This document shows, piece after piece, positions 537 to 7,100 of a stretch of DNA of 29,151 nt. The first letter of the stretch is position 1. Every line of letters starts with the position of its first letter. The notes beneath the pieces were generated by a model that was not told the origin of the DNA, did not search any database, and was given only the letters and a program-made list of their open reading frames with translations. The position numbers and the translations under genes were made by a program. The stretch is taken from IMG/VR virus record IMGVR_UViG_3300032287_001876, positions 1 to 29,151 of that record; one strand, written 5' to 3'. Origin of the DNA: a virus.

Positions 537-909
537 TAAATACTGTCATGATTGCAAAACTACTAAAAACACAACAGAGTTTTTTAAAAATAAACTAAAA
601 AAAGATGGATTTGATGTTTATTGTAAAACCTGCGCTAAGGCTCGTGCTAAAAATAGGCGACTTTTACGGAGAATGCGTTTAGACTGTATTCTTGGTGCTC
701 CTTGCTGTGATTGTGGTAATTATTATGATCCTGAATGTATGCAGTTTCATCATATAGATCCTAATGAAAAAGAATATAATGTTTCTAATCTAGTAGTGCG
801 TAAGTGGCATTTAGTAATTAATGAGATTCGTAAGTGTGTTATCATTTGTTCTAATTGCCACGCTACTCGTCATCAAAAAGAAAGAGAAGGAATTTATGGC
901 AACTCTTAG
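511..909 (+). CDS. HNH endonuclease with N-terminal zinc-finger
   Basis: This is a small HNH-family nuclease of about 132 aa. HNH enzymes cut DNA with a histidine-metal centre and are often free-standing homing endonucleases in phages. The N-terminal half has a CxxC...CxxC pair (YCHDC, then YCKTC) and the C-terminal half has CCDC, the catalytic FHHIDP stretch and CSNCHATRH; together these form the zinc-bound HNH fold. The start is uncertain: in-frame GTG codons lie at 499 and 511 and TTG at 517 and 520, none with a clear Shine-Dalgarno. I chose GTG 511 because related proteins start only a few residues before the first cysteine. It overlaps the end of nrdJ, and its TAG stop overlaps the next ATG at 896. 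It is visibly more AT-rich (long A runs around 575-605) than nrdJ, which suggests a separate origin. Confidence 0.85.
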   Translation: MKLLTLLANKYCHDCKTTKNTTEFFKNKLKKDGFDVYCKTCAKARAKNRRLLRRMRLDCILGAPCCDCGNYYDPECMQFHHIDPNEKEYNVSNLVVRKWHLVINEIRKCVIICSNCHATRHQKEREGIYGNS

Positions 910-976
910 TATGGTAATCATGGCTGCAACACTCTTGTTCCCTGTTCCGAAACATGAAACATACCCTCCAACTTGA
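896..976 (+). CDS. Short hydrophobic ORF (26 aa), probable N-terminal piece of the split Rpf-like gene
   Basis: This 26-residue ORF starts at an ATG preceded by a good Shine-Dalgarno (AGAAGGA, about 4-5 nt upstream) inside the end of the HNH gene. Its product, MATLSMVIMAATLLFPVPKH followed by ETYPPT, has a hydrophobic stretch that could be a weak signal or anchor sequence, although it lacks the usual positive start. It ends at TGA 974-976. The same frame then stays open through AAG and the ATG at 980 into the Rpf-like domain. It could be a stand-alone leader peptide, but the frame continuity and the absence of a good ribosome-binding site before ATG 980 suggest that both pieces were once, or still are, one protein. 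Confidence 0.5.
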   Translation: MATLSMVIMAATLLFPVPKHETYPPT

Positions 977-979
977 AAG

Positions 980-1252
980 ATGCTAATCAAGATAGGACAA
1001 TGCGAACAACCCGGAAACGGTTGGAAAGGAATTAATTGGAAAAATAAAATCAATTATTCCTTTAGAGGAGGTCTTGGACTCACAAATGAGAATTGGAGAA
1101 TGTTTAAACGTAAGGGACAACCTGAGTATATGGATCAGGCTACTATTGTAGAGCAGTTATGGGCTGCTCATCGTCTAGCAATGTGGGTTAAGAAAGAATA
1201 TGGTAATCCTTGGCTCGCATGGGATTGTTATACCAAAGGTAATTTAAAATAA
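980..1252 (+). CDS. Rpf/transglycosylase-like muralytic domain protein
   Basis: The 90-aa product resembles the lysozyme-like fold of resuscitation-promoting factors and actinophage transglycosylases, which cleave the glycan strands of peptidoglycan. The pattern is in the right order: IGQCEQPGNGW, where the glutamate after the cysteine is the expected catalytic acid; then FRGGLGLTNENWRMF, matching the usual YGGLQFSxxTW block; then DQATIVEQLWAAHRLA; and finally a WLAWDCY end like the family's GWGAWPxC. The two cysteines could form the family disulphide. No Shine-Dalgarno precedes ATG 980, and the frame is open upstream apart from one TGA at 974-976. It may be the phage endolysin or a virion-borne enzyme. 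Such domains are typical of Actinobacteria and their phages. It is the last plus-strand gene before the convergent terminator. Confidence 0.75.
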   Translation: MLIKIGQCEQPGNGWKGINWKNKINYSFRGGLGLTNENWRMFKRKGQPEYMDQATIVEQLWAAHRLAMWVKKEYGNPWLAWDCYTKGNLK

Positions 1253-1254
1253 AA

Positions 1255-1285
1255 AAAGGGAGGATGCCGCTGGCATCCTCCCTTT
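1255..1285. terminator. Bidirectional rho-independent terminator between convergent arms
   Basis: A perfect 14-bp inverted repeat, AAAGGGAGGATGCC and its complement, encloses a 3-nt GCT loop. The arms end in AAA and TTT, so each strand reads a GC-rich hairpin followed by U residues. It starts 3 nt after the plus-strand stop codon (1250-1252) and ends 5 nt before the minus-strand stop codon (1291-1293), so it can stop both transcripts. Confidence 0.92.
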
Positions 1286-3885: not shown

Positions 3886-4122
3886 TTAGATCGCTTGAGT
3901 AACAAACCAAACAACAGCAGCAAGAATGCCGCCACTAATAACACTAGTAGCAATCACAGTCTGCATACGCTTACCCTCTGCTACACCATCCCACTTAGCA
4001 TTCTCCATCTCAAGTTCAGTAACACGCCCATTAGTACGCTTAACCTCAACATGAATCTGATTAAGAGTAGCCTCCAAATGCTCTAACTTAACAAGAATAA
4101 CCTCAACACTATCATTACTCAT
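3886..4122 (-). CDS. XhlA-like coiled-coil membrane protein
   Basis: The product is 78 aa: an amphipathic coiled-coil of about 45 residues (VEVILVKLEHLEATLNQIHV, then TNGRVTELEMENAKW), a short basic stretch (EGKRMQ) and one C-terminal transmembrane helix (VISGGILAAVVWFVTQAI). This is the layout of haemolysin XhlA-type phage proteins, which associate with a holin. Either GTG 4125 or ATG 4122 could be the start; GGAGG lies 7 or 10 nt upstream, inside the end of the large internal protein gene. The holin-like gene follows 10 nt downstream. Function is inferred from architecture and neighbours only. Confidence 0.75.
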   Translation of the reverse strand: MSNDSVEVILVKLEHLEATLNQIHVEVKRTNGRVTELEMENAKWDGVAEGKRMQTVIATSVISGGILAAVVWFVTQAI

Positions 4123-4128
4123 CACATC

Positions 4129-7100
4129 CTAGCCTCCCATCATACTCAATTGTTTAGCAATACCAGTTTTAGGACGCTCATCCTGAATCTTATTCAACAC
4201 AAACATGATCTGAGACTCGTCCATTCCTTGAGCGCGAGCAGCAGGAACCCAAACCTCAGTCACATACTCATAACGCCTCTTCCACTTTTGTGCAGCCTCC
4301 AAGCCCTTCATAGCCTGATCACTACGAGCAGCATCATTAATATACTTAAGCACAATAGCACCAACAGCATCCTGCCTAACACTAGGCGGAAGAGTACTAG
4401 GATTAAGCCTATACGATTTAATACCCAAAGCACTAAACAAACGCTGAGTAGGATCAGCAGCCTCAGCCGCCTTCATATTAGGAATCTTAAGCCTCCAAGG
4501 ATCCTTAGGATCACTAGGATCATAATTCTTAAGAATATCAGGCGCATTATCAATAGCAGCATACTTATTCTGAAGAGCATCAGCCTCATACTCATTATAC
4601 TTAGCCAACTCTGCAATCTTATACGGATAAGTAGCCTTCATAATACTACCACCCATATCCTTAACCATACCAAAAACACCACCCGCCTGAGTACCATCCT
4701 TCTGCAAACGAGTCCAATCAATATTACCAGTACGCGGATCAACACCAAACGTATCCTTAATAAGCGCATTAAAATACGGATTACCAAACTCAAATACATT
4801 AGTATGAGACTCGCCACCAGTAAGCAACTTAAACGCAGCCATACCCATATCACCACTAGTACCAAAAGGACTAAGAGCATTACCATCAATACGAAAATCC
4901 GTATCACTAATACCAAACATATCCTTAATAACCTGTGGAACAGGAATAGTCTGCATCATCCACTCAGGAACACCCTGCTCAAGATTCTGCTGATAACCCT
5001 GCTGCCCAATATGATACAAAACATTACTAGTAATAGGACGATCAACTAGCATACGATACGAGAACGTAGCCGAATGCCGCTGCCAAGCATAAAAAGGCAT
5101 AACAACATTACGCATAAGTTGTTCAGCAGGACTAAAATTATGATAATTACCAGACACCGTATTAGTAATATAACGCATACGATGTTTAAGATTAGCATTA
5201 AAATAAGGACTAGAACGATCAAGAAGAAGATCAGTAGCAGCCTCAAACGGAGTAATAGTATCATCTCCAGTACGAGTATTACCATTCCAATCAACACCAT
5301 TATCAATATATGCTTGAACCTCTGGGCCACGCATAAACGATTGGAAACCAGCATCATTACGCAAAAACTGCATACCAACATTACGACGCATCATACTTTC
5401 CCAAGCACTAACAACCGTATAACCCCCATGCCACACATACTTCTTAGCCCAAGCAGCCTTTGTAACATTCGGATTATTAATATCAGCAAGACTCTGCGGA
5501 TTAGCAGCGACACCCTGAATACCAGCATCCTGCTTATAAATATTATGCTCAGTTTCATAAGCCATGCTACGCGCAACAGCCTCAGACTCAGCCTTAAAAT
5601 TAGTAAGTTGAGCCGTAAACCAATCATTATTAATACCACGCCGCATAGACTCCCTAGCCATCTTCTCAATAACAGTACTAAGAATAAGAGGAGCAACACT
5701 AGGATTAAACATCATCATCATTGCCAAACCACCAATGATATTATTAGAAATAAAACCCGGATTAGCATTCAAAACAAAAAACTTAAACAAGTTACCCCAG
5801 CCCTTAACACCCTTAGCACTAAGAAGACGAGCACTAAGACTATCAGCCTCAATAGTCATCTCAGCAAGATCCCTATACGCTTGATTAGGAATAGCAAGAA
5901 CAAAACCTTCACTAGGAATCTCATTAGGATCAGAGAACTCTCTAGCAATCCAAGCCTTAGTAGTAGAATGCGTAGCAAGATCCTCTTGAAGAGCCTCACT
6001 AAGCCAATCATGCAAACCACCACGCACAATAAACTGTGGCTCACCATTAATCATTCTAACACCCATACCAGAATTAATATCAAGAGTAGACTCAACAGGA
6101 TCAAGAGTACCATTCAAGTAACTAGCAAGCGCATCCTCAGCCTCAGGACCAACACCACGAAGCCTAGCAAAATCAAGAGCATCCTCAACATTATCAAACA
6201 CACCCACATTATGAAGCGTATGATAACCAGACTCACTAGCCGTCTTACCAGTCACCCGACTAGCAGGAATAAGAACAGCAGCAGTCTCAGCCAAAGTACG
6301 AAGATCACGCTCAATACGACTCTTCATAAAATTAACACGAGACTGAATAATACGACTAAGTGCATGCTGACGCATACCAGACAAAGCAACACGAGATTCA
6401 TTACCAATGATCTGCTCATTCTGACGAACACCAGTACGACCCGTATCATTAACCTTCTCAGAATAAAAACGAGCCTTAGAATAAACACTAGACATACCAT
6501 TAAGCGCACCCTCATACAAGAGTTTACGACCAACATCAATATCCTCAAGAATAGGAGCACCAGCACCCTTACGCTTAGCAGAAAAGAAAACCTTAGGCAG
6601 AACAAAAACCTCATTAGTATCAACTAACTTGCCCTCAATAACCTTACCTGCATCAATCTCATGACGAAGAGTAGGAATATGAAAAGCAACAAAATCATTA
6701 CCCACATTCTCAGCAGCCTTAATAAGCACCGGACGACCCGGAACACCATACGATCCAAGACCATCAGTAAATACACCAATACGCTGAAGAGCCTCAACAG
6801 CCTCCACCATCTGATCCTCACGCTGCTTACGAATAACCGGATCCGCAATATCATCAAACACCGTACCAGCCTCATCCGCCTTCTGAGCAAGACTAATAAG
6901 CGCCTCACGATTACCACGAGCAGCCAAACCAGTAATAAGAAGATTAGTATTAACACGTAACACGCGAGTAGTAAACCGACCAAGACGACCCTTACGACCA
7001 TTCTTACCAAACAAACGATAAGGATTAAGCCCAAGACCCTCCATAGCCTCCTTATACAATAATTCTAATTGCTTAAGAGTACGAGGAGTAGTATCATCAT

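Follow-up and report, generated by a model that had tools for sequence, protein, structure and literature searches.

Locus and gene order

The window analysed here (29,151 bases) is a whole virus record that encodes a terminase, a portal protein and a major head protein. Its first bases lie within a ribonucleotide reductase gene (phrog_367 match, 93-536); an Rpf-like gene comes after this gene and is oriented towards the structural genes. When translated, 896-1252 reads MATLSMVIMAATLLFPVPKHETYPPT, a single internal stop, and then KMLIKIGQCEQPGNGW...KGNLK before the terminal stop. An earlier note on this DNA, made from the letters alone, described two open reading frames (ORFs) split by TGA and AAG, and translation confirms that a piece of 26 codons (896-976) and the Rpf-like ORF (980-1252) share one frame, with no further stop between ATG 980 and the TAA at its end. 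The upstream piece consists of a hydrophobic segment followed by the linker PVPKHETYPPT; by hydropathy, the segment is short and has no basic N-terminus of the kind typical of signal peptides. The inverted repeat past the locus is likely the shared terminator of the convergent genes. The features are collected in Table 1.

Table 1. Sequence features of the Rpf-like locus and its surroundings
Feature	Position	Strand	Basis
Shine-Dalgarno sequence AGAAGGA of the upstream piece	885-891	+	Read from the sequence; 4 nt before ATG 896
Upstream piece, 26 codons	896-973	+	Open frame with Shine-Dalgarno sequence; kept in six relatives
Hydrophobic segment TLSMVIMAATLLF of the upstream piece	902-940	+	Hydropathy
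In-frame TGA, proposed programmed readthrough codon	974-976	+	TGA in seven distinct genomes and two partial copies
Codon 3' of the TGA, Lys or Arg in every case (AAG, AGG or AGA)	977-979	+	Relatives; Arg in uninterrupted distant homologues
ORF of the predicted Rpf-like muralytic catalytic domain, stop TAA 1250-1252	980-1252	+	Remote homology; ATG 980 without Shine-Dalgarno sequence
Cys-Glu of the Rpf motif QCE: Cys 1001-1003, presumed catalytic Glu 1004-1006	1001-1006	+	Invariant in the alignment
Second invariant Cys (WDC)	1226-1228	+	Counterpart of the C-terminal disulfide Cys of Rpf domains
GC-rich inverted repeat GGGAGGATGCC-GCT-GGCATCCTCCC between convergent genes	1258-1282	.	Read from the sequence

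An HNH endonuclease gene (499-909; phrog_2255, E 6e-31) lies between the ribonucleotide reductase gene and the upstream piece, whose start it overlaps. It is found in the window and not in the relatives that were read, and its end, ...GNS-TAG, resembles the relatives' ribonucleotide reductase tail.

Six sister phages (L033, L034, L036, L037, L038 and L039), whose large virion protein is 50-71% identical, carry neither the piece nor the domain; their ribonucleotide reductase gene ends close to the structural block. The piece and the domain thus come and go together, and the gene belongs to the accessory set of a single lineage. Because L006 has a separate endolysin gene with CHAP plus PG_binding domains, the main endolysin is probably a protein other than the Rpf-like enzyme.

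Rpf-like identity of the downstream domain

The downstream ORF is predicted to encode a peptidoglycan-cleaving (muralytic) enzyme of Rpf-like type. Pfam PF06737 matched seven of the eight family members below threshold, so that the curated cut-off was not reached (for example, 16.0 bits for L008 against a cut-off of 27; best E-value 0.00084), and the window copy alone gave no match to this profile. A profile search of the PDB returned RpfE and RpfC only (E 0.12-0.6), and in a fold search with a model of the joined protein the 12 best PDB matches were all Rpf (best E 0.04, range 0.04-0.3; probability 0.94-1.00; TM by target mostly 0.55-0.65; identity ~21-28%). Fold and profile searches therefore name Rpf alone, at weak E-values, and the Rpf-like nature that the earlier note had assigned holds as remote homology.

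The CE motif and a second Cys near the C-terminus are invariant in the alignment, which includes a distant homologue. By comparison with known Rpf domains and structures, we take the Glu after the first Cys to be catalytic and the two Cys to form a disulfide. An invariant Cys pair of this type would fit a site outside the cytoplasm.

In the joined-protein model, built with the TGA read as Trp, the first helix of the catalytic domain comprises residues 26-37 and holds both the TGA residue (27) and the Lys after it; the TGA would therefore fall in the first turn of the catalytic domain. Confidence in this model is moderate (mean pLDDT 73.7, against 49-55 for the four others). A separate fold of the 90-residue ORF, predicted from the single sequence, was too poor to use (mean pLDDT 46) and is not comparable with the model made from an alignment.

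Conservation of the in-frame TGA

Scans of IMG/VR retrieved six further distinct full-length relatives of the window phage (3300037189_003995, 3300043437_000121, 3300010885_008354, 3300044627_001907, 3300044733_001928 and 3300042517_000301), along with two partial copies whose available sequence matches one of the six. When the homologous codon was read in the alignment, as the earlier note had proposed, it was TGA in all seven distinct genomes and in both partial copies. The junction reads ACT-TGA-(AAG/AGG/AGA)-ATG throughout the seven, with the ATG always 3 nt past the TGA and the heptamer ACTTGAA invariant. The YPPT-stop-K/R junction, the frame and the spacing are fixed across relatives, and there is no gene overlap that would demand it.

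This junction is kept amid considerable divergence. Between genomes, the catalytic ORF is 72-90% identical in nucleotides, with dN of 0.02-0.21 against dS of 0.67-3.8 or saturated, and the resulting dN/dS of ~0.02 to 0.18 indicates strong purifying selection. In the upstream piece dS exceeds dN in most pairs, the values being noisy for so short a sequence, and its length differs by one whole codon only among the six relatives. Coding constraint is thus seen on either side of the conserved TGA, downstream and, in most pairs, upstream. No indels or extra stops occur in the seven genomes' copies.

Pattern scans that allowed TGG at this codon, one of which also allowed TAA or TAG, found none of the three in true relatives. 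The sole TGG match (L075) is an unrelated protein, and so is the sole pattern match in cellular genomes (L078). The cellular genomes searched held no relative, and the named phages searched gave weak Rpf-like matches only (REQ1 lysin, a tape measure protein), none of them useful for the codon.

How much weight the codon itself can bear was judged from stop usage and from neighbouring sites. These phages end 140 ORFs with TAA, 53 with TAG and 53 with TGA (246 ORFs), and a change from TGA to TAA is one transition, silent at a plain stop. Within the catalytic ORF, only 2 of the 11 two-fold A/G codons and 3 of the 18 four-fold codons are invariant across the seven genomes, and ACT-TGA is invariant. 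At non-overlapping TGA stops of other genes, TGA was retained in three of six orthologue pairs. The invariant TGA is suggestive of constraint on the codon itself and not strong evidence of it, since these genomes share ancestry and TGA is often kept at other stops too. The joint recurrence of the TGA, the frame and the missing Shine-Dalgarno sequence in seven distinct genomes is, on these comparisons, beyond chance.

Start signals and a control gene pair

Shine-Dalgarno pairing energies bear out the earlier observation that the good ribosome-binding sequence belongs to the upstream piece: the energy is -8.7 kcal/mol at ATG 896 and +0.8 kcal/mol at ATG 980, and the median for 19 other window genes is -9.7 kcal/mol. 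The pattern recurs in all seven genomes, with values of -5.4 to -8.7 kcal/mol at the piece (-5.4 to -7.1 in the six relatives) and +0.1 to +0.8 kcal/mol at the catalytic ATG. By this measure, the catalytic ORF has no initiation signal of its own in any of the seven; 11 of 169 other ORFs have no start better than -1. Among the relatives, the catalytic ATG never comes with a ribosome-binding site of its own and the upstream piece is never missing; the pattern that the earlier note had named as refuting was not seen.

It is not rare in these compact genomes for neighbouring genes to share a frame. In most of the phages, a gene of 78-79 residues lies past the stop of a large virion-protein gene and in its frame (3886-4131 in the window), with similar spacing among phages. 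The stop between these two genes varies (five TAG, two TAA), and the second start has a strong Shine-Dalgarno sequence (-8.8 to -11.5); other in-frame neighbours of real size likewise have Shine-Dalgarno sequences. We rejected in-frame adjacency as a stand-alone argument, because this genuine two-gene pair shows the same, and the informative part is the missing start signal. In stop variation and in the Shine-Dalgarno sequence of the second start, the studied pair and the control pair are opposite.

Uninterrupted homologues

Three GC-rich phages (L012, L028 and L068) carry a hydrophobic segment, a linker and a related domain in a single ORF, with the junction sequences ...PDIIRAIIKIGQCEQP, ...RAIVRAIIRIGQCEQP and ...PDIIRAIIRIGQCEQP, respectively. 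In the alignment, these homologues have Ile or Val opposite the TGA and Arg opposite the Lys/Arg codon between TGA and ATG, which supports the view that codons 5' of ATG 980 belong to the protein. The Rpf-like proteins of these three phages are ~200 residues long, and the two tested had no Pfam match.

The homologues also bear on the guess that the TGA is a mutated Trp codon. An ancestral Trp is unsupported, because Ile or Val stands at that position in distant homologues and no relative has TGG. The Trp of mycobacterial Rpf domains (RpfB/RpfE) sits three residues nearer the catalytic Glu than the TGA codon. At readthrough itself, Trp may nevertheless be inserted, as happens in Qbeta (PMC8067240).

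Reinitiation as the main alternative

Besides an error, the earlier note had offered two courses: a leader peptide with reinitiation, and programmed readthrough. Both stand up to the evidence, which tilts towards readthrough. Under coupled termination-reinitiation, which we regard as possible and on the less probable side, the 26-residue peptide would end at TGA 974 and ribosomes would restart at ATG 980 three bases on, yielding the Rpf-like domain as a protein of its own in the cytoplasm, at a level coupled to the peptide's translation. The ATG at an invariant 3 nt past the stop is what this reading predicts, and close in-frame coupling is common in these genomes. The catalytic domain of mycobacterial Rpf starts near the position equivalent to ATG 980, so that the shorter product could fold.

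A review (PMC5972666) describes reinitiation as frequent in prokaryotes; it also describes bacterial reinitiation in vitro as strongly Shine-Dalgarno-dependent. No genome has such a sequence before ATG 980, whereas the control pair does. Reinitiation further leaves unexplained the Lys/Arg codon between stop and ATG, which matches Arg in the uninterrupted homologues, and gives no reason for TGA over TAA. Its product would be without an export signal although the Rpf Cys pair is invariant, and it sits poorly with the modelled helix across the TGA; only the fused form brings the hydrophobic segment.

Decoding of UGA

A second alternative, very unlikely in our view, is that the phage, or else its host, has UGA reassigned to an amino acid, in the manner of code 4 or 25, or that UGA specifies selenocysteine. 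Recoding of UGA to Trp is known in some phages (PMC11210395), and nothing here supports it directly. In these phages TGA is an ordinary terminator, and the conserved window genes are intact under table 11 without reading TGA. No tRNA with a TCA anticodon, that is, no UGA suppressor, was found in the contigs, several of which are fragments; the tRNA genes found are Leu-TAA, Leu-CAA and a twelve-tRNA array without TCA. Reassignment is unlikely because TGA ends 53 of the 246 ORFs and the tRNAs found have no TCA anticodon. Past the TGA, neither a conserved RNA structure nor a 3' stimulating hairpin was detected (z -1.96 to +0.33), which also counts against selenocysteine, as do the distant homologues with Ile or Val, not Cys, at this position.

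The twelve-tRNA array lies at 3963-4882 of L060 (contig 3300044627_001907). The tRNA-Leu(TAA) gene lies at 5891-5973 of L006 and at the same place in relatives, adjoining the 5' end of the ribonucleotide reductase gene, and ORF callers extend the latter into the tRNA. A suppressor tRNA had been suspected in this 5' extension; it is the tRNA-Leu(TAA), not a UGA reader.

If UGA is read at all, the near-cognate tRNA-Trp of the host would have to do so; this is the case in Qbeta, with Trp entering at UGA about once in fifteen times (PMC8067240). In E. coli, Salmonella and B. subtilis, UGA is regarded as leaky (PMC7918605).

Just as improbable is a third alternative, in which the piece acts by itself as a small membrane protein (holin-like, for example), with the catalytic ORF translated from an unrecognised start of non-Shine-Dalgarno type. 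A hydrophobic piece with its own Shine-Dalgarno sequence would suit it; the frame, spacing and YPPT-stop-K/R junction fixed without an overlap to demand it, and the joint absence of piece and domain in the sister phages, argue against it. The nonsense mutation or sequencing error offered in the earlier note, to which one stop within the frame might point, given that homologous genes are uninterrupted, is excluded for practical purposes along with gene decay, because the same TGA stands in all full-length close relatives, assembled from different samples, and the sequence past it is under strong purifying selection with no indels or further stops.

A proposed readthrough model for the Rpf-like gene

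Taken together, the comparisons make it probable, if only just, that 896-1252 is one gene whose full product arises by programmed readthrough of UGA 974. In the proposed mechanism, ribosomes would load at the Shine-Dalgarno sequence before ATG 896, and the majority would stop at UGA and release the 26-residue hydrophobic peptide. A minority would insert an amino acid at UGA, most likely Trp via near-cognate tRNA-Trp, and continue into the Rpf-like domain. The product, 118 residues long, would begin with the hydrophobic segment and run through a short proline-rich linker into the muralytic domain. The hydrophobic segment would anchor the enzyme in the membrane or carry it across, and the leak would supply a low, fixed dose of an enzyme that would be harmful in excess. 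We infer the readthrough, the residue inserted, the membrane location and the dosing role from sequence comparison and modelling; anchoring or export is put conditionally because the segment is short and does not form a typical signal peptide.

Several lines of evidence favour readthrough. First, the TGA stands at one codon in seven of seven genomes despite 72-90% identity and a dS from 0.67 to saturation. Second, the catalytic ATG lacks a Shine-Dalgarno sequence in all seven and the piece has one in all seven, the opposite of the control pair. Third, uninterrupted homologues have the same layout, and a modelled helix spans the TGA residue. Fourth, the piece and the enzyme are jointly absent from sister phages, the Cys pair is invariant, and dN/dS is low (~0.02 to 0.18). 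Against readthrough stand the missing conserved 3' structure and suppressor tRNA, the ATG at codon 980 in all seven genomes, the short segment that is atypical as a signal, the weakness of TGA retention by itself, and the moderate confidence of the model.

Evenly poised, in our judgement, is the wider reading that in one lineage of tailed DNA phages programmed UGA readthrough, with no suppressor tRNA involved, sets how much of a muralytic enzyme is made and brings it to the membrane, the stop being part of the gene's design and kept while nearby synonymous sites neared saturation. If true, DNA phages can use a leaky stop to dose a cell-wall enzyme, with neither genome-wide recoding nor a suppressor tRNA. 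Annotation pipelines would then cut such genes in two and lose the segment for anchoring or export, which is what standard ORF calling did here.

Comparison with known systems

Programmed readthrough in phages is best known from small RNA phages such as Qbeta. The coat/A1 pair of Qbeta (PMC8067240) resembles the proposed gene in its leaky UGA, with a majority short protein, a minority C-terminally extended one and low-level insertion of Trp. Qbeta is an RNA phage and its extension belongs to a minor capsid protein, whereas here a tailed DNA phage would release a 26-residue hydrophobic peptide and carry a cell-wall enzyme as the extension, by a readthrough that we infer.

The domain resembles actinobacterial RpfB, RpfC and RpfE (PF06737) by fold and remote sequence, with the catalytic Glu and the Cys pair kept; it differs in its low identity in fold alignments (~21-28%), in falling below the Pfam cut-off and in being interrupted by UGA. 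A peptidoglycan hydrolase motif related to Rpf is also found in a phage protein, the tape measure of mycobacteriophage TM4 (PMC1796659). The TM4 motif is part of the virion tail, whereas the present domain is encoded by a small separate gene after the ribonucleotide reductase gene.

Stop codons proposed as translated are also a feature of phages with reassigned stops (Crassvirales, table 15 or 4; PMC9523058, PMC11210395). Recoding in those phages is genome-wide and often accompanied by suppressor tRNAs; here it would concern a single codon of a single gene, in phages that otherwise use TGA as a normal stop. A survey of conserved in-frame stops in bacterial genes (PMC7918605) shares with our analysis the comparative sign of readthrough at a conserved internal stop. 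That survey covered bacterial genomes at shallow divergence, whereas the present case is a phage gene whose synonymous sites are near saturation.
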